DNA of 64,000 nucleotides from Pleurocapsa sp. PCC 7327. Its GTDB lineage: Bacteria; Cyanobacteriota; Cyanobacteriia; Cyanobacteriales; Microcystaceae. The notes beneath the pieces are model-generated. The model saw only the letters and a list, made by a program, of their open reading frames with translations. It made no database searches and had not been told where the DNA came from. Below are positions 37,089-56,675 of this stretch, piece by piece. The DNA is taken from assembly GCF_000317025.1 (NCBI RefSeq), contig NC_019689.1, positions 3,984,024 through 4,048,023 on the forward strand, read 5' to 3'. Numbering within the stretch: the first letter of the stretch is position 1; every line of letters starts with the position of its first letter. The translations under genes were made by a program, and so were the position numbers.

Positions 37089-38684
37089 TTATTCGCTCTT
37101 TTGTTCGTCAATGACTCGTTTGAGCGAATTTTTGTTGAAAGCTGGAAAAATTAGAAAGGGGAATTGTTCTTTTGCCGTCCGTAGCTCGTCAAAAATCGGA
37201 TTTTCTAGTCCTGTCACTACGCACCAAACGCGGGCGCGAGTCATAGCAACAAAGGCTTCGTTGCGCTTTTGCAGTTCGTTTTCTTTCTTCCATGCCGAAG
37301 GCTGAGTAGCGCAGTGGAAGCGACAGGCATACACTTTCCAAGCTTCATTCCCTTTAGCGCGATAAATGTTAGCAATCGTGACGCAATCCGGTTTGCCGAA
37401 CTCGCTGGGGTCGCTATCCGTGCCGACAATGCAACTTTTGACGCCGTAATATTTTAGAGCCTCTTGCAGGCGACAGAAATAATCCTGCTCTTTTTCTGCG
37501 GCGATCGCTGTTATCATTAGGTCTGACGGAGCGAGTCCCGCTTGCAAGTCCTTGGCAACCTGCTGGGCAATCCATTCCTGTTCTTCTGACTCGTCATGAA
37601 AAGTTTGGAGCGCGAGCAGATCTTTTATTCCTTCTCGAACTTCAAAATTCTCGCGATCGATCGGATGAGGGCTTTTCTCAACTTGACGTTCGATTTTGAC
37701 TTGTTTTCTGGCTTTGACGCTGGCATCGCTAAAGTCACCTTCGAGTACGTTATAGCCTAATTTTTTCCACTCTTGCTGATTGCTAACTCCCTGCAATACG
37801 CCTCCTTGACGCAAAAGTCCCATATTGACGGCATGGGCAGCCATTAGTAACGATTTAGGCGTTCGATAGCACCGATTTAAATTTTCTGACTTGCGGATAT
37901 TCGTTCCTTCATAAAAGAAGGAACCGTTACTTGCCAATCCCAGATCGACTACGGGAGTCCCGTCGGGATTGCGACCGAAAATTTTAGTGGCATCTGGAAC
38001 GATTAAAGAGTCTATTCCTTGAGCTTCATCATACGCCCAATAGAGTCGTTTGGGTTCGCTCAAAGTATTGCGAGCGAGTCGATAAAATGACGCTGGTAAA
38101 TCTTGAGCTTCATCGATTAAGATAACGTCGTAGAGAATAGGAAAATTTGTAATTTCTATTTCGAGAATATTACAAACATATTTAAAAGCTCCTCCAGGAG
38201 AAACTTTGCCAATTTCATTTTCAACATCTTTGACGGTTTTGGGCTGCATTCCACACTCAATGGCTAACCGCCGATAAAAACCATCTCGTTCTTTGCCTCC
38301 CCAGGCATGTAAGACTTTTAAATTATCCCAATTGGGTTCTCTTCCCTCGCTGAGTTCGCCATAATATGTACTAATGCGTTCTTTGATTTGGTTGTAAAGC
38401 GATCGCGTAAAAAAGACAAAAGCAAGTTTCCAGTCGGGATGTTCGTAATGGATTTTGGCTGCGCGTTTGACTAAAAGAATCGTTTTCCCCGTTCCTGCCA
38501 ATCCTCGAATGCGCTGCGGCCCATCGGGATATTTAGAAGCAATTTCTTGTTGCTGCTCGTCTAATATTTTGAGGGAAGATTCGAGATAGCAAATGACTCT
38601 AAGTGGACTATCAGCAGGCATTCCTTCTGGGATTTGACGAGAAGATCCGGAAGGTAGAGTTTCCGCAACAGTATTCTCAACCAT
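37089..38684 (-). CDS. Superfamily I DNA/RNA helicase
   Basis: 531 residues. Walker A RIRGLAGTGKTILLVKRA is at residues about 58-75 and Walker B YDVILIDEAQDLPASFYRL at about 190-208. Later motifs are NLNRCYRTPKSLLMAAH, VTIANIYRAKGNEAWKVY and NEAFVAMTRARVWCVVTG, the UvrD-like motifs IV-VI. No nuclease domain is visible. The ATG at 38684 has GGAG 7 bases upstream. It is third on the minus strand behind two coiled-coil genes (gap 169 bp), facing a divergent XRE-ImmA pair. This grouping suggests a defence or DNA-repair role, not housekeeping. Confidence 0.88.
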   Translation of the reverse strand: MVENTVAETLPSGSSRQIPEGMPADSPLRVICYLESSLKILDEQQQEIASKYPDGPQRIRGLAGTGKTILLVKRAAKIHYEHPDWKLAFVFFTRSLYNQIKERISTYYGELSEGREPNWDNLKVLHAWGGKERDGFYRRLAIECGMQPKTVKDVENEIGKVSPGGAFKYVCNILEIEITNFPILYDVILIDEAQDLPASFYRLARNTLSEPKRLYWAYDEAQGIDSLIVPDATKIFGRNPDGTPVVDLGLASNGSFFYEGTNIRKSENLNRCYRTPKSLLMAAHAVNMGLLRQGGVLQGVSNQQEWKKLGYNVLEGDFSDASVKARKQVKIERQVEKSPHPIDRENFEVREGIKDLLALQTFHDESEEQEWIAQQVAKDLQAGLAPSDLMITAIAAEKEQDYFCRLQEALKYYGVKSCIVGTDSDPSEFGKPDCVTIANIYRAKGNEAWKVYACRFHCATQPSAWKKENELQKRNEAFVAMTRARVWCVVTGLENPIFDELRTAKEQFPFLIFPAFNKNSLKRVIDEQKSE

Positions 38685-38853
38685 TTAATTTCTCCGTATA
38701 GTGTTTCCTCTAAGTATTCCCAACGAAGAGCAAGAAATTACTATTTTTGGAAACAGATTCGATGCCAAATGTTTTGTTTGACAAAGCTCCTCGATAGATT
38801 TCATGGATAATATGAATTCCCTAAGAGTTAAGTTATTCAAAACTCAGGTTAAA

Positions 38854-39942
38854 CTACTTGTTTTTTGGCTGATTTTTAGCTTGTTCGAGAGCAATTTCTT
38901 TAATAGCCTCGAATGAATTGCGATTGGAAGCACCTTCAATCGCTTTAACTGCCAAATCTTGTACTTGTTTGAGTGCGGCATTGAGTTGTTGAGACAAGTT
39001 TTGAATTCTAGCCTGCTGATTTTGAATAGTTTGTTCTAACGCTCCAATTCGCAGTTCGTAATTGCGTTTTTCTCCTTCAATTTCTTTAGCTCGCAAATCG
39101 GCTCTCACTTTGGCTTGATAGTTGCCAATACCTTTTCCTTCTCCTTGAGCTTGTTCGATCTTTTTCTTGAGTTCTTGCTCGAAAGCTTCTACTTTTTGTT
39201 TTGCCTCGGCATATTGTTTTTCTTTCTCGATAATGCTTTCTTCTCTTTGTTTCCACTGCTTTTCTTGTGCTTGACGAGCTTCGTCTAATTCTTTGTAGAG
39301 ATTTTTCTTTTGCTGCTGATATTCTTCTTCGCTTAAATCTCTTTCCAACTCCAAGTTATACCAATATTCTTCTTCATCTCGCTGGCGTGCTTTTTGATAA
39401 AATTCATTGCGTTCTTTGAGCTGACGAGCATAAGTTTCTTGCTCTTTTTGCCAAGCTTTTTTTAAGGCTATAATTTGTTGCTCTAGCGTCTCTCGCTGCT
39501 GGCTAATTTCTTCTTCAAATGCTTTTGCACTTTCTTCATAGGATGCAACTAAAGTATCTAAAGTGTCTTCTTCGACTGATTCTATCTCGTGTAATTCTTC
39601 TAATTTTTGTAGTTCTTCGGCTACCTCAGTTTGCAGTTCTTCAAGGAATGAAGCTTCGGCGATAAGTTGTTCTGATAAATGACTAACTGCGCTACCAAAT
39701 CCTACTTGTAGTTTTTCTAGATTTTGAATAATTTGGTTAATGTTATTTTGGGTTATCGAACTCATAACTTTTTGTTTTTCTTCTTTATCTTTATATGCTA
39801 TTGAAGATTCTTGAGATTCAGTTTTTCTTTCTCGTTCGATTTTTTTGAGTTGCGATTCTAGGGTTGTTTTTTCTTTTTTTAATTCTTCAAAAGCTTCTAT
39901 TAATTCAGCTTTTGTACTCTTGGACGTTACTTTAGCAACCAT
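38854..39942 (-). CDS. Long coiled-coil protein B
   Basis: About 362 residues from the ATG at 39942, which has AGGAG 8 bases upstream. Nearly the whole protein is Glu, Lys and Gln-rich helix with heptads. It has no Walker motif, membrane segment or recognised domain. It is a paralogue of protein A (39973-40962): both share the phrase pattern NINQIIQNLEKLQVGFG / VSHLSEQL near residue 70-95 and end QVQDLAVKAIEGAS. SMC hinge and head domains are absent. It probably forms filaments or a scaffold with its paralogue. Confidence 0.8.
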   Translation of the reverse strand: MVAKVTSKSTKAELIEAFEELKKEKTTLESQLKKIERERKTESQESSIAYKDKEEKQKVMSSITQNNINQIIQNLEKLQVGFGSAVSHLSEQLIAEASFLEELQTEVAEELQKLEELHEIESVEEDTLDTLVASYEESAKAFEEEISQQRETLEQQIIALKKAWQKEQETYARQLKERNEFYQKARQRDEEEYWYNLELERDLSEEEYQQQKKNLYKELDEARQAQEKQWKQREESIIEKEKQYAEAKQKVEAFEQELKKKIEQAQGEGKGIGNYQAKVRADLRAKEIEGEKRNYELRIGALEQTIQNQQARIQNLSQQLNAALKQVQDLAVKAIEGASNRNSFEAIKEIALEQAKNQPKNK

Positions 39943-39972
39943 CAATAAATCTCCTAATGAATGTTAATTAAA

Positions 39973-40962
39973 TTAATTAGCAGAGGTTCCATTGCCTTGA
40001 AATGCTCTTATTGCCAAGTTCTGTGCTTGAGTCGTGACTTTTTGTAATTCGGCAGTGAGTTCAGCTATCTGTTCGATTTGTTTTTGAATGGCGGCATCAA
40101 GAGATTGAATCTTGAATTCATATCCTTGTTTAGTTAATTCCCACTCTTTTTCAAAGAGATCGGCTTTGACTTTGGCATCTCTTTCTGCCTCTTTAATGGC
40201 TTCTACTCTGGCTTGATTGATTTCCTGTTTAATCGTTTCTTCAAAGCCTTCTATTTTTTTTTGATTGACTTTAAATTCTTCTTCATTATCTGCCAAGAAT
40301 TTTTCTCGCTCTTGCCAAACTTTTTCTTTGTCTTGATTAGCTTCTTGCAGTTCTCTTTCTTGTTGTCGCTTGGATTCTTCGTACTCATTCATTTCGATCT
40401 TGCGATCGCGTTCAATTTGATATTGATAATCGGACAATTCTTGTTCTCTTTGTTTCGCAATTAATTCGGCTGCTTCTGAGACTCTTGCCTCGAATTCTTG
40501 CTGTTCTTTTTCCCAAGCTTTGCGAGTTTGAGTTATTTCTTTCTCTAGGGATTCTCGCTGGCTATTGGTCTTATTTTCTAGGATTTTTAGCTGTTCTTGA
40601 TGCTCTTGTCTTAAAAGATACAATGCATCAGCCACTAAACGCACTTTATGAACTTGCTCTAACTGTTCTTTTTTGACTGCTATAGCTCGCTTGAGTTCAT
40701 CTAATTTAGAAGATTCCTCGACTAAGCGATCGGAAAGATTATTAATAGTACGACCAAAATCTAATTGCAGAGAAGCCATTGTATTGACTATGTTGTCAAC
40801 TGTATAGTCAGTAGCTTTTTCTAGTAGTTGTTTGCTCTTTTCTTTTTCGGCTTCTTCTTCTTTGGTCGCGACTTTCGATTCAACTTTTTTCTGTTCGGAT
40901 AACAGTTTGGCAAAAGCTGCCATAATTTGCTCTTTGCTCTCTTTGGGAGCAAGGTTACTCAT
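39973..40962 (-). CDS. Long coiled-coil protein A
   Basis: 329 residues from the ATG at 40962, supported by GGAG 8 bases upstream; an upstream frame extension is not believable. It begins MSNLAPKESKEQIMAAFAKL and is then almost entirely charged coiled coil. The region NIVNTMASLQLDFG / INNLSDRL matches protein B, and the tail TTQAQNLAIRAFQG matches protein B's QVQDLAVKAIEG. The gene is first on the minus strand behind two repeated operator-like sites and is followed 30 bp later by protein B. Function is unknown. Confidence 0.8.
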   Translation of the reverse strand: MSNLAPKESKEQIMAAFAKLLSEQKKVESKVATKEEEAEKEKSKQLLEKATDYTVDNIVNTMASLQLDFGRTINNLSDRLVEESSKLDELKRAIAVKKEQLEQVHKVRLVADALYLLRQEHQEQLKILENKTNSQRESLEKEITQTRKAWEKEQQEFEARVSEAAELIAKQREQELSDYQYQIERDRKIEMNEYEESKRQQERELQEANQDKEKVWQEREKFLADNEEEFKVNQKKIEGFEETIKQEINQARVEAIKEAERDAKVKADLFEKEWELTKQGYEFKIQSLDAAIQKQIEQIAELTAELQKVTTQAQNLAIRAFQGNGTSAN

Positions 40963-41054
40963 AAGGATAATTCTCCAAAAATTGTCAAAAAATTTATTTT
41001 GCGGGCAATCTTTTTGATTGCTACGATTGACTGAAAATGAATTGCAGAGCTTGC

Positions 41055-41106
41055 TTGATTTTTTCGTCAACAAAACTATTATATCTCTTGTTGATTTTTT
41101 CGTCAA
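41055..41106. promoter_or_regulatory. Paired 16-bp operator-like sites between divergent units
   Basis: TTGATTTTTTCGTCAA occurs exactly at 41055-41070 and 41091-41106, 36 bp apart centre to centre. The flanks mirror each other (GC before the first copy, GC after the second). The AT-rich stretch ACTATTATAT between them could be a -10. This is where an XRE repressor would control both directions. Confidence 0.7.
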
Positions 41107-41143
41107 GCAAGATTAAAATAAAAAATAGATTAAGGAAAAAAAC

Positions 41144-41485
41144 GTGAATCAAAGCTTTGGTCATCTTATTCGTCAAGCACGAAAAGACAAGGGATATAGC
41201 CAACGGGAACTAGCCGAAAAATTGGGGCTAGATTTCACCTATTTATCCAAACTAGAGAACAACCGAGCCGATTATCCGCCAAAAGAAGAGGTAATCAGAG
41301 CGCTAGCAACTCATTTAGATTTAGATGCTGAAGAATTAATCTTCTTGTCCGGACGCATCCCCCAAAACGATGAAGAAGTTCTCAAACAACACTATAAAAA
41401 CATGCCTACTCTGTTTCGGAGAATGCGAGAAAACCCTGAATTTGCCCAAAAGGTGTTTCAAGCAGCGCAAGAAGCAGACCAATAG
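41144..41485 (+). CDS. XRE-family transcriptional regulator
   Basis: 113 residues from a GTG at 41144 with AAGGA upstream. The N-terminal HTH is classical: FGHLIRQARKDKGYSQRELA, then EKLGLDFTYLSKLENNRADYP. The C-terminal 45 residues are helical and unlike a sensor domain. It is followed 8 bp later by an ImmA-type protease. In phage and ICE systems that pair forms a repressor and its inactivating protease, so this protein probably represses the divergent coiled-coil/helicase operon through the sites at 41055-41106. Confidence 0.9.
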   Translation: MNQSFGHLIRQARKDKGYSQRELAEKLGLDFTYLSKLENNRADYPPKEEVIRALATHLDLDAEELIFLSGRIPQNDEEVLKQHYKNMPTLFRRMRENPEFAQKVFQAAQEADQ

Positions 41486-41493
41486 GAGTTACT

Positions 41494-42162
41494 ATGACAA
41501 ACATCTTCAGACCGTATCGTTTCATTCCCAAACAAGAGATTGAAGCTGAGGCAACCGAGATTTTGCGCAGAATGCAGCAAACGCCTAACTATTCTCCCAA
41601 ATGGGCTTTAGATGCGAGTCGAGTGGCTGAATTTCTGGGATTAGATGTAGTTTGGGACAGCATACCGAGCGATCGCGATGGTACGATAGCAGCAAGGATT
41701 CTCCCCCTAGAACGCCCGATCGAAATTAATGAAGATATTCCTAAATTGCGAGGAGGGTTTGGGGAATCCACCATTGCCCATGAAATCGGACATTGGGTGT
41801 TGCACGTCAATCCAGAAGCGATAAAACGGTGCTTAGAGTTGCACGAGCAAGGAAAAGACATAAGAGTAGAACCGTTATTGTGCCGCAGTGATACTCATCT
41901 GAACGGCATAGAGTGGCAGGCGCAACATTTTGCCAGTTGCCTGTTGATGCCGCAATACAAGTTAGAAGAAGTTAGACAAGGGCGAGATTTAACCAAATGG
42001 TCGCATCTATACGAAATTGCCGAAGAGTTAGGCGTTACCATTTCTAATCTCATCCATCGTTTAAAAGATCTGGACTGGATTTGTCTGTCCGAACATTCCC
42101 GTCAAATCGAGTTAGGCGAGTCAAAGTTGCCTAGGAGAAAGAGAGTGAGTTTAACAGGGTAG
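41494..42162 (+). CDS. ImmA/IrrE-family metallopeptidase
   Basis: 222 residues. The zinc motif HEIGH is at residues 96-100 (ESTIAHEIGHWVLHV), and a likely third ligand region QAQHFASCLLMPQ lies near residue 150, as in the family. The C-terminal part includes IAEELGVTISNLIHRLKDL, a winged-helix-like segment. Such proteins cleave XRE-type repressors or other DNA-bound regulators after DNA damage or infection. It is co-directional and nearly contiguous with the XRE gene (8 bp). Confidence 0.9.
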   Translation: MTNIFRPYRFIPKQEIEAEATEILRRMQQTPNYSPKWALDASRVAEFLGLDVVWDSIPSDRDGTIAARILPLERPIEINEDIPKLRGGFGESTIAHEIGHWVLHVNPEAIKRCLELHEQGKDIRVEPLLCRSDTHLNGIEWQAQHFASCLLMPQYKLEEVRQGRDLTKWSHLYEIAEELGVTISNLIHRLKDLDWICLSEHSRQIELGESKLPRRKRVSLTG

Positions 42163-44004: not shown

Positions 44005-45291
44005 ATGAGATTTAATTGGCTTAACCGTGCGGTTTTGCATCGATTTCTAGAACGGCTGCCTCGCTCAAGAAGAGTTTCTCAAGCAACGCCAGCATTCTCT
44101 ACAGCACTATCAGCAAAACTTCTCGATATTGCTCGTCAGGATGTTCCCACTGTCTTGCGATCGCTCGATACCTCTCCAGACGGTTTGACTGAGGAAGAAT
44201 CCCGCGATCGTTTAGAGGAATGCAGTTTAAATGAGATTGCCCGCGAAAAGCCCCCCAAGTGGTACATCCAGTTCCTAAAAACGTTTCACAATCCCTTAGT
44301 CATTCTCTTGATATCGCTGGCAATTATTTCTTGGGTGAAAGGCGATCTCGAAGCATCAGCCATCATCTTAATGATGGTGATTTTCAGCGTAATTCTGCGT
44401 TTCTCTCAGGAGTTTCGCTCCAGCCTTGCGGCGGAAAAACTGCGGGAAATGGTCAGAACAACTGCAACTGTAAGTCGGAGAGAGTTGAGTCCGGATATTT
44501 CCTCAGAAGTCCTGCAAAAATACCAAGTCGCGCTCCATTCACGTCCTCCAAAAAGAAAAGAAATTCCTATCAAGTTCTTAGTTCCTGGGGATATCATTTA
44601 TCTGTCCGCTGGAGATATGATCCCAGCGGATGTAAGGCTTATTTCAGCCAAAGATTTGTTTATCAGCCAGGGAGCGCTGACGGGGGAGTCTCTGCCAGTC
44701 GAGAAACAGCCGACCTTACCTGATAGTCAAACCCAGATCGCAAACCCATTGGAACTTGCGAATATTTGTTTTCTAGGCACCACTATTGTTAGCGGTACGG
44801 TTACCGCAGTGTTAGTAGAAACGGGGAGCAATACATACCTGGGTGCGATAGCCAAAACCGTTGTCGGTCAAAAAGCGATGACAAGTTTCGATCGGGGGGT
44901 GAATGATGTTAGCTTGCTGCTGCTGCGCTTCATGCTGGTAATTGCTCCTGCGGTTTTTCCGACGATCAATGGTTTTCTCAAAGGCAATTGGACTGAGGCA
45001 TTCTTTTTTGCCCTCTCAGTTGCCGTGGGGTTAACGCCGGATATGCTCCCCATGATTGTAACGGCTAATTTAGCGCGAGGCGCGATCGCCATGTCCGAGA
45101 AAAAAGTCATCTTCAAAAACATCGACTCCATTCAGAGCTTTGACGCAATGGATATCCTGTGTACCGATAAAACCGGAACCCTCGCTCAAGACCGGATCGT
45201 GCTAGAGATGCACCTGGACATTAATGGCGAAGAAAGCGAGGAAGTTCTGGAGTTGCTACAGTGCTGCTCCAATCGAGTAGAGGAGGTATGA
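44005..45291 (+). CDS. Truncated Mg2+-type P-type ATPase (MgtA-like)
   Basis: 428 residues. It starts like MgtA (RFLERLPRSRRVS, LTEEESRDRLEECSLNEIAR), has TM1-TM4, the actuator motif GALTGESLPVEKQ (TGES at residues 226-229), the TM4 motif ALSVAVGLTPDMLPMIVT and the phosphorylation motif CTDKTGTLAQDRI (Asp388). Shortly after, the homology stops at LDINGEESEEVLE and an unrelated CCSNRVEEV ends the protein. The nucleotide-binding domain, GDGxNDAP motif and TM5-10 are missing; normal MgtA is about 900 residues. It ends one base before the next ATPase gene. Confidence 0.9.
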   Translation: MRFNWLNRAVLHRFLERLPRSRRVSQATPAFSTALSAKLLDIARQDVPTVLRSLDTSPDGLTEEESRDRLEECSLNEIAREKPPKWYIQFLKTFHNPLVILLISLAIISWVKGDLEASAIILMMVIFSVILRFSQEFRSSLAAEKLREMVRTTATVSRRELSPDISSEVLQKYQVALHSRPPKRKEIPIKFLVPGDIIYLSAGDMIPADVRLISAKDLFISQGALTGESLPVEKQPTLPDSQTQIANPLELANICFLGTTIVSGTVTAVLVETGSNTYLGAIAKTVVGQKAMTSFDRGVNDVSLLLLRFMLVIAPAVFPTINGFLKGNWTEAFFFALSVAVGLTPDMLPMIVTANLARGAIAMSEKKVIFKNIDSIQSFDAMDILCTDKTGTLAQDRIVLEMHLDINGEESEEVLELLQCCSNRVEEV

Positions 45292-45292
45292 C

Positions 45293-48052
45293 ATGAGCAA
45301 CTGGTACCAATTAGAGATTTCAGAAGTTCTGCAAAAACTGGACAGCGATGCATCCTATGGACTGAGCGCAACAGAAGCCAATCGTCGTTTCAAGGAGTGC
45401 GGTTTCAACGAACTCATCGAGCAAGGACTAAAGAACCCATGGCAAATATTGTGGGAACAATTAACTGAGGCGCTGACGATTATCTTACTCGTTGCTGCGG
45501 TTATCTCGGTTTTTTTGGGCGACTACAAAGATGGCTTGGGCATTATTGCTATTGTCGTACTTATTACTTTCTTGGGGTTTAGCCAAGAATATCAGGCGCA
45601 AAAAGCGATCGCTTCTCTCAAACAGCTAGCAGTACCTGCGGTTAAAGTTCGCCGCAACGGTTGCATGCAGGAAATTTCAGCTCGTTATTTGGTGCCGGGA
45701 GATATCGTGCTGCTAGAAGCTGGAGAGCTAGTGCCAGCCGACTGTCGTTTAATCGACAGCTTGAGCTTGCGAGTATCTGAATCTGCCCTCACTGGCATAC
45801 CCGAACCAGTAGACAAAGACCCAGAAGCCCTCCCAGGAAAAGACTTGGCACTGGGCAAGCGGCGCAACGCGCTCTATATGGGGACTGCCGTCACCTATGG
45901 GCGAGGAGAGGCAGTCGTCACTGAAACTGGTATGGCGACTGAGTTGGGTCGCATTGCCAGCGCGATCGAGACCATAGAGCCAGAACCAACTCCGCTACAA
46001 AAGCGCCTGTCTCAGTTGGTTCGGGAATTGGCGATCGCATCCCTGGTTCTTGTAGGAGCGATCCTCTCTCTAGGACTACTGCGGGGAGAGAACGCGCAGT
46101 TAATGTTCCTAACTGCCGTAACCCTGGTAGTAGCAGCTTTGCCCGAAGGTTTGCCAGCCGTAGTAACCATTGCGCTGGTGCTAGGAGCACAGAAGATGCT
46201 CAAACGGCACGCTCTCGTCCACCACCTACCCGCTGTAGAAGCGCTTGGCTCGGTCACGACCATTTGCTCTGGCAAGACGGGCACCCTAACTCAGAACCGC
46301 ATGACCGTGACCGTACTTGACGTGGCAGGGCATCGCTTAGACTTGACTGCCCGTCTGCGCTCTTATTCCCCGATGCTGGATGCCGAAGAACGGCCTTTTC
46401 TGCTGAGCCAGCCGCCAGCGCTATCCTTTCTGCTGGCTGGCGGGACGTTGTGTAGCGATGCCCAGCTAGAACCCGACCCGGAAGAGCCACGCTGCTTTCA
46501 TGCGGTGGGAGATCCGACCGAGGGAGCTTTGGTGATGGCTGCCGCTCGTCAGGGACTTTGGAAAGCCGAACTGGAACAGAGCCTTAAGCGCGTGACCATG
46601 GTGCCTTTCGACTCTAGACGGCAGCGAATGACTACCGTTCACCAATTCCCCGCCGCCCTTTCTCAAGTCCCCATCGCTTTGGAGATGGTCTGGTATTGGA
46701 GTCGAGCGATCGAAGCAGCAAACTATGTTGCCTTTACCAAAGGCAAGATCGGCAGCTTATTAGAAGTCTGCGATTGGGTTTGGGTAGAGGGGGGAGCGAT
46801 GCGACTCGATGGCAACTGGCGCGAACGGATTGACACGGCCAAGCACCAACTCACCCACAAGGGATTGCGCGTTTTGGGCATTGCCTTTCGACTTTTGCCG
46901 TCTTACCCAGTCGATGGCTGGGAGGACTTGGAGCGAGACTTGATATTCATTGGCTTGGTGGGGATGAATGACCCGATGCGACCAGAAGCCAGAGTTGCTA
47001 TCGAAACCTGCAAAAAGGCTGGCATCCGTCCGGTGCTGGTTACAGGCGATCGCCCCCGAAATGCTTGGCATCTCGCCCAGGAGTTAGACATAGCGAGCGA
47101 TCGCCGTCTCCTAACCGATAAAGAGCTTAACTGCCTGTCCGAGCGCGAATTGGAAGACTTGGTAGAACAGATTTCCATTTATGCGAGAGTTTCTCCACAA
47201 CAGAAGTTTCGCATCGTTCGAGCAATGCAAAAACAGGGGCACATCGTCGCCATGACTGGCGATGGCGTAAACGATGCACCCGCTCTGAAGGCGGCTGATA
47301 TTGGTGTAGCGATGGGCATTAGCGGCACTGACATTGCCAGGGAGGCAGCGGATCTGGTTTTGCTAGACGACAATTTTGCTACCATCGTGGCCGCCGTGAA
47401 AGAGGGACGAGTAATTTACGATAACATTCGCAAGTTTATCAAGTATCTCTTAAGTAGCAATGTTGGCGAACTCTGGGTAATGCTACTAGCTCCCTTTTTA
47501 GGAATGCCCTTGCCACTGATGCCCCTCCAGATTCTCTGGATTAACTTGGCTACTGACGGTTTACCAGCCTTAGCTTTGGGCTTGGAACCGGCAGAGCGAG
47601 AGACCATGAATCGTCCGCCTTACTCTCCCAAAGAAAATATTTTCGGTCGAGGGATGGGAAGGGATATTATCTGGATCGGGTTGTTGATGGGGCTGGTATC
47701 CCTCGGCACGGGCTATTGGTATTGGCGTGCCAAACGCGCCGACTGGCAGACCATGCTGTTTACCGTCCTAACTCTTTCGCAGATGGGCAATGCCTTAGCA
47801 GTTCGATCGGAACGAGACTCGCTTTTCTGCATTGGATTGCTGTCCAACAAGCCGCTTTTGGGAGCAGTTATTCTGACGCTGGGGCTGCAACTGGCAGTCG
47901 TCTACATTCCCTTTTTTGAGAAGCTCTTTGCGACAGTAGCTATGCCCGCAATAGACTTAGCCCTCAGCTTAGTTTTGAGTAGCGTGGTTTTCTGGGCTGT
48001 GGAGTTGGAAAAATGGTTGCTCCGCCGCGCTACAGTTAGATTATCAATATAA
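45293..48052 (+). CDS. Ca2+/PacL-type P-type ATPase lacking catalytic Asp and Glu
   Basis: 919 residues, full-length type IIA/PacL layout with an N-terminal cation-ATPase domain, TM1-10, the PEGLP motif ([16 protein letters not shown]), nucleotide-binding domain and hinge motif [18 protein letters not shown]. Two signature positions are changed. The actuator TGES reads TGIP (residues 167-170; [11 protein letters not shown]), and DKTGT reads GKTGT (Gly327 in [15 protein letters not shown]; codon GGC where GAC is expected). The KGAP-like nucleotide motif reads FTKGKIGS. A phosphorylation cycle should be impossible on its own. The frame is otherwise undamaged over 2.76 kb. Its ATG lies one base after the truncated MgtA stop. 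Confidence 0.92.
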
Positions 48053-48681: not shown

Positions 48682-50751
48682 TTGAAAAATAAATTGAGCC
48701 TAGATAAGTTAGATATTCAAGAAGATTATCGTAGCGATCGCGATAATCTCATTCAAGATTTTTATATTCCTTGTTTAGAACGCACAACTGTTTATAGTCG
48801 GGCAGTTGGCTTTTTTTCCAGTTCTTCTCTCATTGCTATTTCAAAAGTACTTACCGCTTTAATTAGATCTAGGGGAAAGATGCGGTTAGTAGCTTCTCCC
48901 TATTTAAGTCCAGAAGATATAGCAGCGATTGAGATGGGACTGAAACAACGAGAAGAAGTCATAACCAAAGCGATTTTACGGGAGTTCGATCGAGAGTTTG
49001 AAAAGGTTGTTGAAGATAGATTAGCTTGTTTGGCTTGGTTGTTGAGTCAAGGAATCTTTGAAATCAAACTCGCAGTTCCCCAGAAGATCGACGAACAGGG
49101 ACTTTACCACGAAAAATTTGGGATTTTTAGCGATTCTATCGGGAATTGCGTTGCTTTTATCGGTTCTGCCAATGAGAGTTTATCGGGGTTTGCCAGCAAT
49201 TTTGAATATATTGAAGTGTTTCGTTCTTGGAAGGAAGGCGAACAGACGCGAGTTCAACGGAAAGTCGAAGATTTTCAGAGGTTGTGGTCAAATAAAACCT
49301 CGAAAGTAGAGGTAATGAACTTTCCCGAAGCTGCAAAGCGATCGCTTTTAAGATATCGTCCTAGTAGTCCGCCGAAGTATGAAGAAATAGACGCGGGGAT
49401 TGGAAAAGGTTGGCGGTTCAAAGAGACTGGTGAGAATTACAGGATACAGAAAAATGCCCTTAAAGTTGAGTTGCGTCCCCTTCAAGTTGATGCAGTAGAC
49501 GCGTTTGAGAGGGGAAATTATCGCGGCATTTTGGCGATGGCGACGGGGACGGGGAAAACTTTGACGGCGTTGGCTTGCGCGACTCGTTTGGATAATCTAG
49601 ATTTGATTATCATTGGCGTACCGACCAAGGAATTGGCAAATCAGTGGAGGGAGGAAATAGAAACAAAAACTAGCTTTCGATTGCCGATTATTGCAACGGG
49701 CAAGGCGCAACATTAGCGAGAAATCCTGTTTCGGAAGTTGCGTTTGATTTACCATCAAGAATTACCTCGCGAACGACTTCCCGTTATCGTTGTCGGTACT
49801 TATAGCGAACTGTCTAAATCGACAGTTGCAAATTTAATTAGCGATGCGGGAGGATTGCCGGAACGATCTTTACTAATAGCGGATGAAGTTTACGCAACGG
49901 GGGCAGAAGTTTATCGGCGAATTTTACGAGGGGACTTTTGCTATCGTCCGGGACTGTCGGCGACTCCCATTCGTTCCTACGACGAAGAGGGAACGGGAAT
50001 TGTCTTGGGCTATTTTGGCGGAATTGTTTATGAGTTTATTTTAGAAGATGCGATCGCAGCAGGAATTCTCTGCGAATACGATTACTATGTCTATGTCGCG
50101 GCTTTAAGTGAAGAAGAACACGAAAAGTTTTAGCAGTTAACTGCAAAAATTGCTGCTTTACTCAATCAAGACGATCGCGAGCGCACTCATCATTTAACGA
50201 TACAACGAGCAAAAATTATCAAGTCTGCGACTGCCAAAATAAATATCCTAGATCGCATCCTGACCGACCATCCGCCGCAGCAAGCGATGATTTATTGTGC
50301 GGACATCGACGGGGCAACTCAGATTAGTTACAGCTTAGCCCAACGCGGATTTAACGTTGCGCGTTATTCTTCCCAAGACAGCGATCGCAAGAAAATCTTA
50401 GCAAATTTTGCCAGTGGCTATCTGGATGCTTTAGTAGCGGTGAAATGTTTGGATGAAGGGGTAGATATTCCATCCGTCCATCAGGCGATAATTCTAGCCA
50501 GCGATGCGACAGAACGCCAATTTATCCAGCGTCGGGGAAGAATTCTCAGGGTTACGCCTAAAAAATCAGTAGCCACCTTAATTGACGTTCTCGTCGTTCC
50601 TCCTTTAGGAGACGAATCGGTAAAATTGATGGAATCGGAGATTCAACGAATCAAACACTTTGCCCGTTCCTCCCGCAATCGCACTTCAGTCATTATCAAT
50701 TTAATCGAAGAACTGAAACACTACAAGATTACTTATTCAGATTTAACATGA
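48682..50751 (+). pseudogene. PLD-nuclease / SF2 helicase of the Dnd island, two in-frame amber stops
   Basis: About 690 codons in one frame from a TTG at 48682. The N-terminal phospholipase D-like part includes LYHEKFGIFSD and AFIGSANESLSG (HxK...N). The helicase part has Walker A ILAMATGTGKTLTALA, LLIADEVYATGAE, LSATPIRSYDEEGTG and QFIQRRGRILRV. Two TAG codons (49714-49716 and 50131-50133) interrupt the frame; both fit single-base changes, from Trp and from Gln or Glu. No frameshifts are needed. This PLD-helicase type is associated with DNA phosphorothioation loci as a candidate restriction factor. Confidence 0.85.
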
Positions 50752-50969
50752 AACCAACTACCGTTTATTTACCAGAAGAAACAGAAGCTAACCTTCAACA
50801 ACTTGCTAAGAAAACCGGGCGTTCTCCAGAAGAACTCATTCAAAAAGCTATTGAAAACTACTTGGCTAAACAGACTTTCTCGTTACCAAAATCTGTGGGG
50901 ATGGGTGCAAGCGGTATGTCAAATTTAGCCGAGAGAAGTGAGGAACTGCTGTGGAAGGAAGAATCATAG
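50748..50969 (+). CDS. Ribbon-helix-helix antitoxin
   Basis: 73 residues: KPTTVYLPEETEANLQQLAK begins with the RHH strand and continues KTGRSPEELIQKAIENYLAK. The C-terminal tail GMSNLAERSEELLWKEES would bind the toxin. The ATG overlaps the helicase stop by 4 bases and the gene overlaps the following PIN toxin by about 19 bases (toxin GTG at 50951), the usual antitoxin-toxin order. The antitoxin is intact although its toxin is destroyed. Confidence 0.85.
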   Translation: MKPTTVYLPEETEANLQQLAKKTGRSPEELIQKAIENYLAKQTFSLPKSVGMGASGMSNLAERSEELLWKEES

Positions 50970-51400
50970 CCGATACCAGTGGAATTATCGCTTTTTTAGA
51001 CCGAGATGACCGACCTGGTTGAGCAACAAAACTCAAATCGCCCTCACCCCAATCCCTCTCCCAGAGCGGGAGAGGGGCTTTTAACCTAAGACTTTTGTCT
51101 GAAGTCCCTTCGCCCCTTGTGAGAGAAGAGATTTAGGGATGAGGGGACAAAGATTTGTCAGTCAACCAGGATGACCGACACCATACAACAGCAGTTGAAA
51201 TCGTCAGAACAAGAAAGATTGTGATTCCAGTTACTGTCCTTGCTGAAGGATACTTGGCTTATCTTTCTGTAGACTTAAAAGATTTAACTAGAACCGATCG
51301 GATAATGAAACGTTATAGAGACTTTCCTTTGGGTCTAGTTGATACTAGCCTAGTTGCTTTAGCAGAATGTTATCAAATCAAACAAATTTTAACCATCTAG
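50951..51400 (+). pseudogene. PIN-domain (VapC-type) toxin interrupted by a MITE
   Basis: The first part reads VEGRIIADTSGIIAFLDRDD, with the catalytic Asp and Asp-rich start of a PIN domain. After removing the 155-bp element (51015-51169) and one copy of the 10-bp target, the frame continues RHHTTAVEIVRTRKIVIPV then EGYLAYLSVDLKDLTR and LGLVDTSLVALAECYQIKQ. The central segment between the two is shorter than the family norm and the end stops at ILTI, before the usual DRRHF. So there is an insertion, an internal deletion and a short C-terminus. Confidence 0.85.
51005..51179. mobile_element. 155-bp MITE with 10-bp target duplication
   Basis: The element occupies 51015-51169. It begins CTGGTTGAGCAACAAA and ends with the inverse of CTGGTTGACTGACAAA, so the terminal inverted repeats match at the outer 8 bp and most of the next 10. 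GATGACCGAC is duplicated at 51005-51014 and 51170-51179. The interior has the widespread motif CCCTCACCCCAATCCCTCTC followed by GAGAGGGG, which can form a hairpin. There is no transposase. Confidence 0.88.
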
Positions 51401-51434
51401 AACTTTTGCCGTAAGTCATAAGCGATTGAGTTGA

Positions 51435-51638
51435 GTGAAGCGCGATCGCATAGTTGTTGAGAATACTATTGAAATTATGATGGAAATTGAACAAAAACTA
51501 AAACAATTGGCTAAGAAACATAAAATTCCAGAAGAATTATTAAAAGAAGCGATCGCCCTAGAAAAAGAAAGAATCATGTACGCCAATCGCCAATGCGTCC
51601 CTAAACTTCTCAAAGCGATCGCGCGGTACGCAGAATAA
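51435..51638 (+). CDS. Small helical protein at the start of the dnd genes
   Basis: 67 residues (GTG at 51435; an ATG at 51477 is another start). Highly charged and helical: MMEIEQKLKQLAKKHKIPEE then LLKEAIALEKERIMYANR. It precedes dndD by about 65 bp in the same direction. Very small proteins of this type occur directly upstream of dnd genes in cyanobacteria, and I place it there on position and composition only. Confidence 0.55.
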   Translation: MKRDRIVVENTIEIMMEIEQKLKQLAKKHKIPEELLKEAIALEKERIMYANRQCVPKLLKAIARYAE

Positions 51639-51703
51639 ACCTCCTTAGCGTCCTCTTTTGCGCCTTTGCGTGAGAAAAAACAAACCTATGTAATTGATAT
51701 AAT

Positions 51704-53628
51704 ATGGGACTGCGCCTCAAACAAATTCGCCTTAAAAACTGGAAATGCTACCGCGAACAAATTATTCGATTTAATCTAAATACAGATAAAAACATTTGGA
51801 TTATTTTTGGACAAAATGGCTATGGAAGAACCTCGCTTCTGGAAGCGATTATCTGGTACTTGTATGGAAACGAAGGTGTTTTGACTAAAAAATTACCCGA
51901 TTATTTCAATCGAATCGCTCTCAAAAAACGAAAGCCATTAGAATTATTAGTCCAACTAAACTTTGAAGAAAATGGGAAAATTATTTTATCAGTCGAGAGG
52001 CAACCTGGAGTTTGCGAGGAATGACTCCTAATGTTGTGGTAAGCGAACCGACCTTTTATGAAGATGGAACGCAGAGAAAAATCCATGGGAATATATAGAT
52101 AGTTTATTACCCAAGTCGTGTAAAGAATTTTTCTTCTTCGATGGGGTAGAAATACAACGCTACGCACAACTAACGCAAACAGAGGAAACTCGCAATGCGA
52201 TCGAGCAGATCTTAGGAATTCCCGAACTGAAAAACCTGCGAGACGATGCCGACAAAGCTTTACACCAGATAGAAAAAGACTTAAATAAAGCATCGGTAGC
52301 GAATCAAGATTTGAAGCAAAAAACCGAACGACTGGAGAAGCTTCAAGAAGAGATCGAACTAACAACAGGTCAACTTCAAATTGCCAAAAAAAAGCCTTAC
52401 AGAAGCTATTAAAATTTATGAAGACTGTCAAGAAAGGGCACGGCAGATAGAAGATTTACATGACAAATTACAAGAGATCGATAAAAAAGAACAAGAGAAA
52501 CGTTATTTAGAAACAAATCTTGAAAATGCTGAAAAAGAAGTTGAAAGTGCCTTCAGAAAAGTTTCCATTCCGCTAATGCGAGAATTCGTTCAGGAAGTTT
52601 ATGATGACCTGCAACGAAAAAGTATTAAAAAGACAGGATTATCGTTTTCACTCAAGCAACTACGCGACCTTCTCAATAGCGATCGCTGTTTGTGCGGTCG
52701 GTGTATGGACGACCAGTCTCGCGATTACATTCGCCAGCAGCTGGAAGAGTTAAAAAACATAGGAAATTTGACCCAAGAAATTATCGAACACGATGAGTTA
52801 CGGAATCGATTATCGGGATTGTTACAGGATCGACCTCTCGATCTGGATGGGTTATTGTTGAAACGCGATCGCATTCGGGACGATTTAGACGAACCCAAAC
52901 AAAGCATTGCCAATCTTAAACAGGATACCAATGGACTAAAACGATCCGAAGTCGAGGAAACTTGGCGCAGAGTTGGCGCACAAGAAAAAAATGTCGAGGC
53001 AATTGGGGAGAGAATTAATCGCCTCAGCAGAGAAATCGAACAGAAAAAACAAGAAGCGGATCGCCTGCGTCGAGAAATAGAAACGCTAGCGGATCGCGAT
53101 CGAGAAACTGCTACCTTAGTCAAACAGGTTAGATTAGCTGAAGGACTGCGCGATGCCGAGAACGAACTGATTGAATGGTATATCGATGACCGCAAGCAAA
53201 CGATTGAAACTCAAACCTCCGATCTTCACCGTCAAGTGACAAATAAACCAGATGAGTATCGAGGAGTCGCGATCGCGCCTAATTATACTTTAAGAGTCAA
53301 GACGGTTACAGGAGAACTCCTCAACCCAGAAAGTTTAAGTGCAGGCGAAAAAGAAGCTTTAGCTTTTGCTTTTATTACTGGGTTAAATTTAGCCTCAGAA
53401 ACCGCTGCGCCATTGATTATGGATACCCCCTTTGGTCATCTGAATATACAGCATCAAAAAAACATTATTAATGCGCTTCCCAACATTCCCTCTCAGGTGA
53501 TAGTGTTGGCTACGGACAGAGATTTACCCGACTATCTGCTACATGAGTTGCGTCCTCACGTGGCAGAAATTCTCACGATTTCCCGCAATGCGATGGAGGA
53601 TATGTCAATTGTAGAGGTACGAGAATGA
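51704..53628 (+). pseudogene. dndD: dndD: DNA phosphorothioation ATPase, frameshifted
   Basis: Pieces in three frames make an SMC-like ATPase. The N-terminal piece has LRLKQIRLKNWKCYREQ and Walker A FGQNGYGRTSLLEAI, where the usual GKT/GKS Lys is Arg42. Next come TWSLRGMTPNVVV, then WEYIDSLLPKSCKEFFFFDG in another frame, then from 52381 a long coiled coil with zinc-hook CLCGRCMDD and the C-terminal ATPase half (NPESLSAGEKEALAFAFI, LIMDTPFGHLN). Frameshifts lie near 52005, near 52075 and in a run of eight A at 52385-52392; seven A would restore the third. The downstream partner overlaps its stop by 4 bases. Confidence 0.88.
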
Positions 53629-54032
53629 AGCGGATAGACCCCGCAACAACTATTCGTCCAACGCCTGAAGCGAATGGATATCTCAAGGTACTCAAAAATA
53701 ATGGTGCGTTTGGTCGCATGGTGGATGCGTATTTGTTTGCTGCTGCTTACGCGATTAAAAATAATGTCGATGTTGCTTCAATACCGTCTCAAGGTCGCCA
53801 AGATCTAATTAATACAGGCATTGTAGATGATGAGGTTCGTCTTTCTTTAGAGGCGGGAATTCATGCGATTTGCAAGCGCAACAGTCGATCTGAACCTACA
53901 GATAGTCGAGAAATAATGGAAATTTTGACCCAGTATGCAGAAGCGGGACTTAAATTATTAAAGCAGCGCTGGGAAGGCAAAGTAGGGATTCAAATACAGG
54001 ATGATGTTCGGAGGATTATTAATCACTCATGA
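53625..54032 (+). CDS. Dnd-associated small protein (DndE position)
   Basis: 135 residues. It overlaps the dndD stop by 4 bases and the next gene's start by 4 bases, so it is part of the same coupled unit. The sequence RPTPEANGYLKVLKNNGAFG then MVDAYLFAAAYAIKNNVDV and a long C-terminal helix resembles small dnd-system-associated proteins more than the classical DndE helical protein, but I cannot separate the two by eye. The frame is intact. Confidence 0.6.
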   Translation: MKRIDPATTIRPTPEANGYLKVLKNNGAFGRMVDAYLFAAAYAIKNNVDVASIPSQGRQDLINTGIVDDEVRLSLEAGIHAICKRNSRSEPTDSREIMEILTQYAEAGLKLLKQRWEGKVGIQIQDDVRRIINHS

Positions 54033-54607
54033 ACATACGTACTCTCTACATACCAAAAACTCTAAAAATTACTCAAGAACAATTTGAACAACTCGCCAGA
54101 GAAAATCGAGACAGACATCTCGAAAAGTCGGCGACTGGAGAACTCATTATTATGCCACCGATGAGAGGGAATACAGGCAGACGGAATATAGAAATTGAAG
54201 GACAACTTTGGTTTTGGAATCGACAAACAAAATTAGGCGTTGCTTTTAATTGTTCGACAGCTTTTCATCTGCCAAATGGTGCTGACCTTTCTCCTGATGC
54301 TGCTTGGATTAGTCAACAGAAGTGGGATACACTGACTCCCGAACAACAAGATACTTTTCCTCCTCTGTGTCCCGACTTTGCTATAGAGTTGCGATCTAAA
54401 ACAGATAATATGGAACCTTTGCGTCAAAAAATGCAGGAGTATCTAGATAATGGATTGCGTTTGGGATGGTTAATCGATACGAAGAATAGAAAGGTGAAAG
54501 TTTCTCGTCAAGATCGACCTGTAGAAGTGTTGGAGAATCCAATAAGTTTATCGGGAGAGGATGTGCTTCCTGGTTTCAGTTTGGATTTGCAAGGGGGGTG
54601 GAGTTGA
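54029..54607 (+). CDS. Uma2 (DUF820) family restriction-like protein
   Basis: 192 residues. Typical Uma2 order: helix with LTQEQFEQLAREN-like start (KITQEQFEQLARENRD), GELIIMPPMRGNTGRRN, GVAFNCSTAFHLPNGADLSP and the catalytic strand PDFAIELRSKTD (PD-ExK-like). The fold belongs to the PD-(D/E)XK nuclease superfamily, with no proven role. Its insertion between the DndE-like gene and dndC is odd, but the 4-base overlap on its left suggests it is part of the operon. It is a different subtype from the truncated Uma2 at 48428. Confidence 0.8.
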   Translation: MNIRTLYIPKTLKITQEQFEQLARENRDRHLEKSATGELIIMPPMRGNTGRRNIEIEGQLWFWNRQTKLGVAFNCSTAFHLPNGADLSPDAAWISQQKWDTLTPEQQDTFPPLCPDFAIELRSKTDNMEPLRQKMQEYLDNGLRLGWLIDTKNRKVKVSRQDRPVEVLENPISLSGEDVLPGFSLDLQGGWS

Positions 54608-54667
54608 GGGAGAGGAAGGCGCGATCGCGTTTAATAAAGATATGATTCTGCCAATAGGAGTTTGACC

Positions 54668-54764
54668 AAACTGAGAGCTTCAAGAAGGATATTGTTGCGA
54701 TCGCAACAATATCCTTCAGGATTTTTATATTCCTTGCTTGGAACGAGCAACAGTAATTACCTAA
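54668..54764 (+). pseudogene. Decayed second copy of the Dnd helicase N-terminus
   Basis: The frame LQEGYCCDRNNILQDFYIPCL then ERATVIT and a stop matches the start of the helicase at 48682, which reads IQEDYRSDRDNLIQDFYIPC then LERTTVYSR. The nucleotide block GGATTTTTATATTCCTTGCT has a close twin at 48755-48775. Only about 28 codons remain. It marks a partial duplication or the scar of a second helicase gene between dndE-Uma2 and dndC. Confidence 0.8.
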
Positions 54765-55130
54765 GTTCAAAACGAATTATTAAGCATTGGTTGGCGGTGG
54801 GGTAAATGTACCTCATCGTAGAGCGCGTGATATAGGGTTTCTAAATAAATCGTAAAATCATTTTATCGTGCGACGACCAACAGGAGTCGCGAGCGAGACG
54901 TTTGCGCAAAGCGAAGTGCCGAAAAGGTCGGATCGCACTACTTTTTACAAATCAAATAGACTTGCTATAGAACGCAGCAGATAAAATGAGCTTGTTGGTA
55001 ATGGTATTTTGAAAAGTAAATGAGGACAACTGCGTTGTTATGGTGTTGCTTTCAATTTAAAGAAATTGTTGTGTCTTTCTCCTGCATATCCGATATAAAG
55101 CGTAAGACTAAATTTTAGGAGTTTTTGGAC
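54765..55130. other. Gap upstream of dndC
   Basis: About 365 bp. No gene recognised. It has the purine-pyrimidine stretch GCGAAGTGCCGAAAAGG and promoter-scale AT-rich DNA. A ribosome site AGGAG at 55117 belongs to dndC. Confidence 0.45.
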
Positions 55131-56675
55131 ATGACGGCAACCCAACCATCTCTATTTCCGTCTCGGACTGTAACTGAGTTGGTAGAAGATATCAAGAAGC
55201 TGACTCAAGAAATCCAGGAGTTGTATTGTCAAGATGCTATTCCCTGGATTATAGGAGTGTCGTGGGGAAAGGATAGCACAGCAGTCTTACAACTTGTCTG
55301 GAATGCGATCGCCGCTTTACCAATAGAAAAGCGACATAAATCTATTCACGTTATAACCACGGATACTTTAGTAGAGAATCCGATTGTTGTTGCCTGGGTA
55401 CGTAAATCAATACGGCAACTTAAAACAGCAGCAAAAAAACAACAAATACCACTAGAAGCTCATTTACTTTATCCAGAGGTTAAAGATAGATACTGGGTAG
55501 GTCTAATTGGAAAAGGTTATCCGGCACCACGCTTAAAATTTCGATGGTGTACTGGGAGACTAAAAATTAATTCGTCTAACCGATTTATCCGTGATGTTAT
55601 ACGTACCTGTGGCGAGACGATTCTTATATTAGGCACTCGAAAAGCTGAAAGTTCCAGACGTGCTGCCGTAATGGAAAAATTAGAAGCAAAGCGAGTACGC
55701 GATCGCTTAAGTCCTAATGCCAGTCTTCCCAATTCCCTGGTTTACAGTCCTATTGAAGACTGGCGTACTGATGAAGTTTGGTTGTACTTAATGCAATGGG
55801 AGAATCCTTGGGGCAATAGCAACAAAGATTTACTTGCCATATATAGAGGAGCAACAGCAGATAATGAATGTCCTTTAGTTGTAGATACTTCAACTCCGAG
55901 TTGCGGCAGTTCTCGATTTGGTTGCTGGGTTTGTACACTGGTTGATAGTGATAAATCTTTATCAGCAATGATCCAAAATGACGAGGAGAAAGAATGGTTA
56001 CAACCGCTAGTAGATCTTCGTCTTGAACTAGATATAGAAAACGATCGCGATAAAAGAGACTTCCGTAGAATCTACGGTAAGGTAGAACTATTTGAACGGA
56101 ATGTAGAAGGTGAAATATCTATCGAACCCATTCCCGGTCCTTATACAAAATACTGGCGGGAACATTGGTTAAGACGAGTCCTCGAAGCACAAGTTAAAGT
56201 CCGTCAAAATGCACCTGAAGAATTTCAAGACATTACCTTAATTACTCCAGAAGAATTGAGTGAAATTCGACGCATCTGGTTAGAAGAAAAACACGAATTT
56301 GATGACAGCTTACCTCGCATTTATGAAGAAGTGACAGGCGAACCTTTTCACGATCGAAGACCTGGAGCAAGTACTAGCTTATTAGGTAGCGATGAATGGG
56401 ATGTATTAGAAGAAATTTGTAGCGACGATGCCATGCACTTAGAATTAATGGCAAGACTCCTCGACACCGAACGCCAATATTACACCAAATCTCGCCGGGT
56501 CGGAATTTATGAAACTCTAGAAAAATGTTTTGAAAGCAGTTCTCGTTCAAAAAAAGAAGCGATAGAAAATGCACATTTAAAACGGAATTTGAAATCTGCT
56601 GCGGGTGAGGGAGATATTAATAAGGTAAAGCAGCTTACCTGGGCAAATATTAAATTCTCGAAGAAAGAGAAATAA
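55131..56675 (+). CDS. dndC: DndC: DNA phosphorothioation sulfurtransferase
   Basis: 514 residues from the ATG at 55131 (AGGAG 9 bases upstream; an upstream TTG is less likely). The PP-loop pyrophosphatase motif reads IGVSWGKDSTAVLQL. Cys that could hold the Fe-S cluster lie in FRWCTGRLKI, DNECPLVV, PSCGSSRFGCWVCTLV. The family (PAPS reductase-like) transfers sulfur to the DNA backbone with the DndD/DndE complex. The frame is complete, unlike the helicase, toxin and dndD. It is separated from them by 360 bp and probably has its own promoter. Confidence 0.93.
   Translation: MTATQPSLFPSRTVTELVEDIKKLTQEIQELYCQDAIPWIIGVSWGKDSTAVLQLVWNAIAALPIEKRHKSIHVITTDTLVENPIVVAWVRKSIRQLKTAAKKQQIPLEAHLLYPEVKDRYWVGLIGKGYPAPRLKFRWCTGRLKINSSNRFIRDVIRTCGETILILGTRKAESSRRAAVMEKLEAKRVRDRLSPNASLPNSLVYSPIEDWRTDEVWLYLMQWENPWGNSNKDLLAIYRGATADNECPLVVDTSTPSCGSSRFGCWVCTLVDSDKSLSAMIQNDEEKEWLQPLVDLRLELDIENDRDKRDFRRIYGKVELFERNVEGEISIEPIPGPYTKYWREHWLRRVLEAQVKVRQNAPEEFQDITLITPEELSEIRRIWLEEKHEFDDSLPRIYEEVTGEPFHDRRPGASTSLLGSDEWDVLEEICSDDAMHLELMARLLDTERQYYTKSRRVGIYETLEKCFESSSRSKKEAIENAHLKRNLKSAAGEGDINKVKQLTWANIKFSKKEK

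Follow-up and report, generated by a model that had tools for sequence, protein, structure and literature searches.

A probable XRE-ImmA switch at the promoter of a conserved ZicK/ZacK-type coiled-coil gene pair in Pleurocapsa and related cyanobacteria

Introduction

What does an XRE regulator with its own metalloprotease control when the genes that it faces encode long coiled-coil proteins? This question is raised by a locus of Pleurocapsa sp. PCC 7327, situated in a stretch of 64,000 nucleotides (positions 3,984,024 to 4,048,023 of NC_019689.1, in the following simply 'the window'), which is part of one contig of 4,986,817 bases. Here, the genes of an XRE repressor and an ImmA-type protease diverge from two coiled-coil genes, referred to as A and B, and a UvrD-like helicase gene follows B. 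An initial annotation of this DNA had proposed that the five genes form an inducible anti-phage or replication-stress system, with the coiled coils loading the helicase. Our analysis indicates instead that a dedicated XRE-ImmA switch probably controls a conserved, heteropolymer-forming pair of the ZicK/ZacK type, and that the helicase is a local passenger, an acquired neighbour outside the conserved unit.

Results

An operator shared by the repressor and the coiled-coil pair

The palindrome TTGA-N8-TCAA was found at 54 of 56 loci, window included, in the interval that separates XRE from the first divergent gene, either A or a gene termed X. Usually there are two or three copies per locus, which amounts to 139 sites where shuffled sequences gave an expectation of 0.7, and control spacers from 0 to 15 other than 8 yielded 0-3 sites each. 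Neighbouring copies are 34-43 bp (54 cases), 23-25 bp (29 cases) or about 100 bp (2 cases) apart. The -10 box of the predicted coiled-coil promoter in the window stands between two identical copies, the first of which holds the -35 box. A -35 box inside an operator with a -10 box 16-18 nucleotides further on was likewise seen at 54 of the 56 loci, against a mean of 11.3 when the downstream letters were shuffled.

This double operator is nearly unique within a genome. In the window genome it occurs once, and the exact 16-mer just twice, namely as these two copies. Genome-wide searches matched in 12 of 22 chosen genomes, at one place each except in G121, where the only two places are the promoter of the pair and the promoter of XRE itself. 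As far as the sequences tell, the repressor's own promoter and that of its target share one operator. When up to two mismatches were allowed in the window genome, 16 operator matches (the two exact ones included) stood against 16 for the reversed control, and therefore no further regulon is claimed there. As a side observation, a lone operator-like site, TTGACGAAATAGTCAA, lies at G000:C1:2356578-2356593 (locus L250) and may be due to chance; an open reading frame (ORF) of 131 amino acids with a PIN-like look begins 39 bp after its first base.

The operator was also followed in trans. Twenty loci were fetched around an XRE gene lying away from an intact pair; XRE was present in 19, the twentieth (L238) being decayed. 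A full-length ImmA adjoins XRE in 18 of these 19, and an operator stands directly before XRE in 15. Regarding the pair itself, 31 loci come from genomes that have their XRE orthologue at another place, and an operator precedes the pair at 22 of them. For genomes lacking the orthologue the count is 0 of 39, where a genome whose XRE match was weaker (best E above 1e-37, our own limit) was treated as lacking it; the Fisher p of 2e-11 for this contrast is made too small by kinship. In the families f5, f19 and f20 the unlinked pair retains its operator. Eleven of 81 loci had been dropped, as their upstream sequence was too short; among them, two operators are seen at L185, which has XRE, and one site at L204, which has none, the latter in a wrongly bounded stretch of 5.9 kb. 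At the decayed locus L238 (genome G016), fragments of A and ImmA adjoin an operator, and no ORF for B was recognised.

Spread and age of the coiled-coil pair

Matches to B (E 1e-3) were obtained in 158 of the 243 genomes of the order and in 153 of 217 genomes of a second, Nostocaceae-like family, a family label that we deduced. In a class-wide draw at E 1e-20, 30 of 291 genomes matched, 14 of these outside the order. DNA around B was fetched for 136 of the 158 matching genomes of the order; the remaining 22 are the genome of the window, short contigs, genomes with weak matches and some ordinary genomes. Where 1.2 kb or more was available upstream (132 loci), A precedes B on the same strand within 1.7 kb in 129 cases, and in the other three it lies within 3.1 kb of B. 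The paralogy of A and B suspected earlier is confirmed by a nearly full-length hhalign match (100%, 329 columns). In a tree of 57 rows from the loci, a branch with support 100/100 parts A from B. Judged by this tree, A and B derive from one old duplication and have been kept in tandem.

No Pfam family reaches its cut-off with A or B, and their best PADLOC match is at E 0.06. With a pair so widespread in the order, the initial anti-phage reading is not supported. A phage origin was considered and set aside, as no phage match at 1e-5 was obtained with B, and so was a mobile origin, as a single plasmid record was found, on a 1.2-Mb Kovacikia plasmid. Searches of viral contigs with the A and B alignments and with the protein Y described below gave no confirmed relative. 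Two likenesses were observed nevertheless. PHROG 29668 matches B at 1.8e-17 and A at 1.7e-13, over nearly the whole length of both, and gp268 of Bacillus phage G (L258) resembles A over 257 residues (8e-6; 0.3 with B in tblastn). Since coiled coils match by composition, which may account for both cases, these likenesses remain as a lead.

The repressor-protease pair beside the coiled coils

The connection of XRE-ImmA with the coiled-coil pair, as first annotated, is borne out by adjacency and by the common operator. Upstream sequence of 5.3 kb or more was available for 119 loci; XRE and ImmA stand beside the pair in 39 of them, XRE alone in 14 and SphR in 10. An ImmA/IrrE-XRE pair is recognised by an M78 protease with an HExxH motif adjoining an XRE repressor, and this is the arrangement found. 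In Pfam, XRE matches HTH_3 (5e-14) and the protease matches Peptidase_M78 (7.5e-9), the latter match stopping at residue 191 of 222. PADLOC models match as well (capH 2.9e-11, capP 1.5e-15), with HTH_VI fitting XRE better than capH does (1.5e-14), and the best solved relative of the ImmA profile is CapP (E 7e-4). The structure model of XRE consists of a helix-turn-helix (HTH) domain plus three C-terminal helices, with a mean predicted local distance difference test (pLDDT) of 81, lower at the C-terminus. Its Foldseek matches include the full-length DdrO chains 6jq1 and 6rnx (E 5e-3 and 7e-3) and the DNA-binding domains of CapH and ImmR.

In some families, a three-gene operon, X-Y-Z, looks like a second target of XRE. 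Y has no relative in Pfam, PHROG or solved structures; PHROG likewise gave nothing for X and Z, whose Pfam matches all fall below cut-off. Distant relatives of Y (about 33% identity; loci L239 and L240) were noticed on two plasmids, one of 14 kb from Gloeocapsa and one of 148 kb from Microcystis; the former carries an HTH gene upstream of the Y relative and divergent from it.

Identity of the pair

The coiled-coil genes are very probably orthologues of ZicK and ZacK (alr4504/alr4505). A and B of the Nostocaceae-like loci are about half identical to those of the window. In PMC7564538, phoU, sphS and sphR of Nostoc PCC 7118/7120 are given as all4501, all4502 and all4503; sphR being all4503, the next genes are alr4504 and alr4505. 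This is the position at which a tandem coiled-coil pair was found beside sphR: sphR is divergent from A within 2.5 kb at 17 of the 19 Nostocaceae-like loci examined, and at 2.9 kb at one more. The sphR neighbours in the draw from the order belong to five loci of f17 and five of f33. ZicK and ZacK interact with MreB. Springstein et al. (FEBS J 2021) are said to have named both as the filament-forming products of alr4504 and alr4505.

According to PMC7766704, ZicK and ZacK form heteropolymers, are strictly interdependent and could stabilise the trichome; PMC8262864 describes them as elongasome-associated and as interaction partners of SepJ. The filament-forming role first proposed for the pair agrees with PMC7766704, and by analogy A and B of the window may form heteropolymers as well. 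Like ZicK/ZacK, they are a tandem paralogous coiled-coil pair, one that has a divergent sphR neighbour in most Nostocaceae-like loci; unlike there, XRE-ImmA frequently takes the neighbouring place in other families.

Expression data exist for Nostoc PCC 7120 under β-N-methylamino-L-alanine (BMAA). PMC7354497 and PMC8147232 give increases of Alr4505 of 6.67-, 3.57- and 20-fold. One table has RecA up 3.03 and 3.7 together with Alr4505, the authors place Alr4505 under NtcA control, and one of the papers lists DNA recombination and toxin-antitoxin partners taken from a network database.

The helicase as a neighbour

The place of the helicase in the unit, central to the initial proposal, was not confirmed. 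Downstream sequence of 3.9 kb or more was available for 121 loci, and just one of them (G083, of another family) has a helicase of 50% identity or higher near the pair; it is 56% identical, and its start lies 2.4 kb from that of B, with a short-chain dehydrogenase gene in between. Across other genomes the five genes do not co-occur, and the pair belongs to a known family unlinked to the helicase, provided that the ZicK/ZacK gene name is right. No helicase stands beside the pair at the Hydrococcus-like loci L033 and L034, and around the close helicases of G134, G121, G104 and G149 neither XRE nor coiled-coil genes occur within about 5 kb. A scan of named genomes returned four loci. The nearest named relative found is Hydrococcus rivularis, with a B 95% identical and a gene order as in the window, helicase included.

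The helicase itself keeps the Walker motifs GLAGTGKT and LIDEAQD, and in Pfam it matches UvrD-helicase (6.6e-9). It matches PADLOC PDLC03002 at 6e-100 and NF053713 at 2.5e-27, under the cut-off of the latter model. In this core it resembles the STM2767/COG3972-type NERD-UvrD helicases; unlike these, an alignment with two longer relatives places no N-terminal nuclease-like domain in the window protein, which does not have their N-terminal extension. We read this extension as NERD/nuclease-like.

Layout of the window

The coordinates are collected in Table 1. The five frames were described as intact and are indeed open where they had been placed, with the 8-bp gap between XRE and the HEIGH protease and the separate ribosome sites ahead of A (GGAG) and B (AGGAG) all recovered. 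The start of A is most likely the ATG at 40962, with GGAG at 40976-40973, and not the TTG at 41106, which falls within the operator. For B, with its ORF at 38854-39945 (minus strand), the most likely start is the ATG at 39942.

Table 1. Positions of the repressor, protease, coiled-coil and helicase genes and of the regulatory sites in the window
Feature	Position	Strand	Remarks
Operator copy 1, TTGATTTTTTCGTCAA	41091..41106	.	includes TTGACG, the minus-strand -35 box of the promoter of A and B
Operator copy 2, identical to copy 1	41055..41070	.	directly follows the -10 box; spaced 36 bp from copy 1
Predicted promoter TTGACG-17-TATAAT (11/12), towards the coiled-coil genes	41078..41106	-	
XRE repressor, 113 aa	41144..41485	+	HTH N-terminal, three C-terminal helices (model)
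ImmA/IrrE/CapP-type metalloprotease, 222 aa	41494..42162	+	Peptidase_M78, HEIGH motif, no long C-terminal sensor domain
Coiled-coil A, likely ZicK orthologue by gene order	39973..40962	-	ATG 40962, GGAG upstream
Coiled-coil B, likely ZacK orthologue by gene order	38854..39942	-	ATG 39942, AGGAG upstream
Superfamily 1 (UvrD-like) helicase core, 531 aa	37089..38684	-	passenger; no N-terminal extension

Decayed islands had been reported on both sides of the locus. On the right this holds, for a remnant of the Pbe/Dnd type is present at 48682-56675; its PbeA matches are split over three ORFs, only the C-terminal part of the PbeC models is matched, and DndC is nearly full-length. On the left, the genes that come next are ordinary ones (a DUF3370 gene and flavodiiron-type flavoprotein genes). 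Elsewhere in the window, a P-type ATPase ORF of 428 amino acids at 44005-45291 has matches limited to the N-terminal and E1-E2 domains and is directly followed, at 45293-48052, by a longer P-type ATPase with all main domains. A protein of 821 amino acids at 12917-15382 matches PDC-M37B and DolB of PADLOC and, more weakly, TRIP13 and IetA.

Discussion

To connect these observations, we propose a simple mechanism. XRE dimers would bind two or three of the palindromes, which cover the promoter of the pair at its -35 box and its start region; they would repress this promoter and would also act at that of XRE. Under stress, ImmA would cleave or otherwise inactivate XRE, and the subunits of an intermediate-filament-like heteropolymer would be produced. 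By analogy with PprI-DdrO and CapP-CapH, the signal would probably be DNA damage or single-stranded DNA; because of the same analogy, ImmA should cut XRE after damage. Single-stranded DNA activates PprI, as well as the cleavage of CapH by CapP, according to PMC10904395. The benefit would be a reinforced shape of the cell or the filament during stress. A bolder variant, in which an ImmA switch sensing DNA damage or phages calls up ZicK/ZacK-type filaments (with X-Y-Z) that physically protect the chromosome or the cell filament, is conceivable and in our opinion rather doubtful. We know of no XRE-ImmA switch whose output is a damage-induced cytoskeleton.

The comparison with known systems places the switch among familiar ones. 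It is like PprI(IrrE)-DdrO of Deinococcus in combining an XRE repressor with an M78 protease, and in the DdrO matches of the XRE model; unlike there, the target is a filament pair and not DNA-repair genes, the operators are few, and the 222 residues of the protease leave no room for the C-terminal GAF-like domain of PprI. It is like CapP-CapH of the cyclic-oligonucleotide-based anti-phage signalling system (CBASS) in its capH and capP matches and in its protease profile, whereas the neighbours scanned here contain no CD-NTase/cyclase (cGAS/DncV-like nucleotidyltransferase) or CBASS effector. With ImmA-ImmR of ICEBs1 it shares adjacent XRE and M78 genes, but no integrase or conjugation gene was seen among the scanned neighbours. 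Among the literature matches listed, none links ZicK/ZacK or alr4504/alr4505 to XRE or ImmA. The type of switch is already known and, as far as can be seen, its filament-pair output is new.

Several observations weigh against control of the pair by a dedicated switch. Regarding distribution, neither XRE nor SphR stands beside the pair at 56 of the 119 loci, 14 loci of the families f9 and f13 have XRE but no ImmA next to it, and 60 of the 158 pair-matching genomes have no XRE orthologue. Conversely, 18 of 116 genomes with an XRE orthologue show no match to the pair, and therefore XRE has or had other work. XRE is near the pair in 0 of the 19 Nostocaceae-like loci, the family from which the ZicK/ZacK phenotype comes; the BMAA induction in such genomes, with XRE absent from these loci, probably takes another route than this XRE. 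That Alr4504/Alr4505 of Anabaena sp. PCC 7120 are ZicK/ZacK is presumed.

Regarding the operator, none was found before the pair in 9 of the 31 genomes with XRE elsewhere. Seven of these loci belong to f11, f17, f28 and f32; at the other two (f2, broken contigs) X-Y-Z genes precede the pair, so that no operator is expected. The Fisher p overstates independence because the contrast rests on three families (f5, f19, f20). The double operator had no match in 10 of the 22 genomes, in some because the copies are differently spaced, and its reversed control matched in 1 of 22. Furthermore, the Foldseek matches of the XRE model all stayed above E 0.001, and the structure model of ImmA is poor (pLDDT 46.8). 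Finally, a long helicase match of at least 50% identity occurs in six genomes of the order, and in two of them it lies near the pair, which is more than one would expect by chance.

Three other explanations have to be weighed. That XRE-ImmA induces two coiled-coil scaffolds which load the helicase for anti-phage or replication-stress defence would fit the preserved helicase motifs, the PDLC03002 match, the location of the helicase 169 bp behind B in the same orientation and its relative near B in G083; gene order largely refutes it, with one helicase at 121 loci, the intervening dehydrogenase in G083, none at the Hydrococcus-like loci L033 and L034 and the remaining close helicases away from XRE and the pair, and we regard it as extremely unlikely. 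Xre-COG2856 pairs are listed as candidate toxin-antitoxin systems in PMC2701414, and XRE orthologues do occur in genomes with no match to the pair. A selfish toxin-antitoxin-like module to which the pair is merely adjacent is nevertheless very unlikely, since operators precede the pair in families with XRE-ImmA elsewhere and the promoter architecture is conserved across families.

Another possibility is that the pair, with X-Y-Z where present, forms a protective or defence filament induced by stress or phages, its role in cell shape being secondary. This kind of regulator controls CBASS, integrative elements and DNA repair, Alr4505 and RecA rise together under BMAA in the published table mentioned above, PHROG 29668 and gp268 of phage G resemble the pair, and distant Y homologues lie on plasmids. 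However, many families have the pair in the majority of their genomes, and coiled-coil composition may account for the phage likeness. Apart from the remnant island at least 6 kb to the right, the scanned neighbours also gave no recognisable nuclease, cyclase or known effector. Altogether we consider such a defence role improbable, and a dedicated XRE-ImmA switch for the ZicK/ZacK-type pair remains the preferred reading.

In conclusion, a regulator-protease pair beside unknown genes does not by itself imply antiviral defence. XRE-ImmA switches have been described in mobile elements, DNA repair and immunity; in the present case a pair of cytoskeletal filament proteins is most likely the conserved target. 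With the operator, the repressor and the protease named, it becomes testable when and why cyanobacteria make these filaments.

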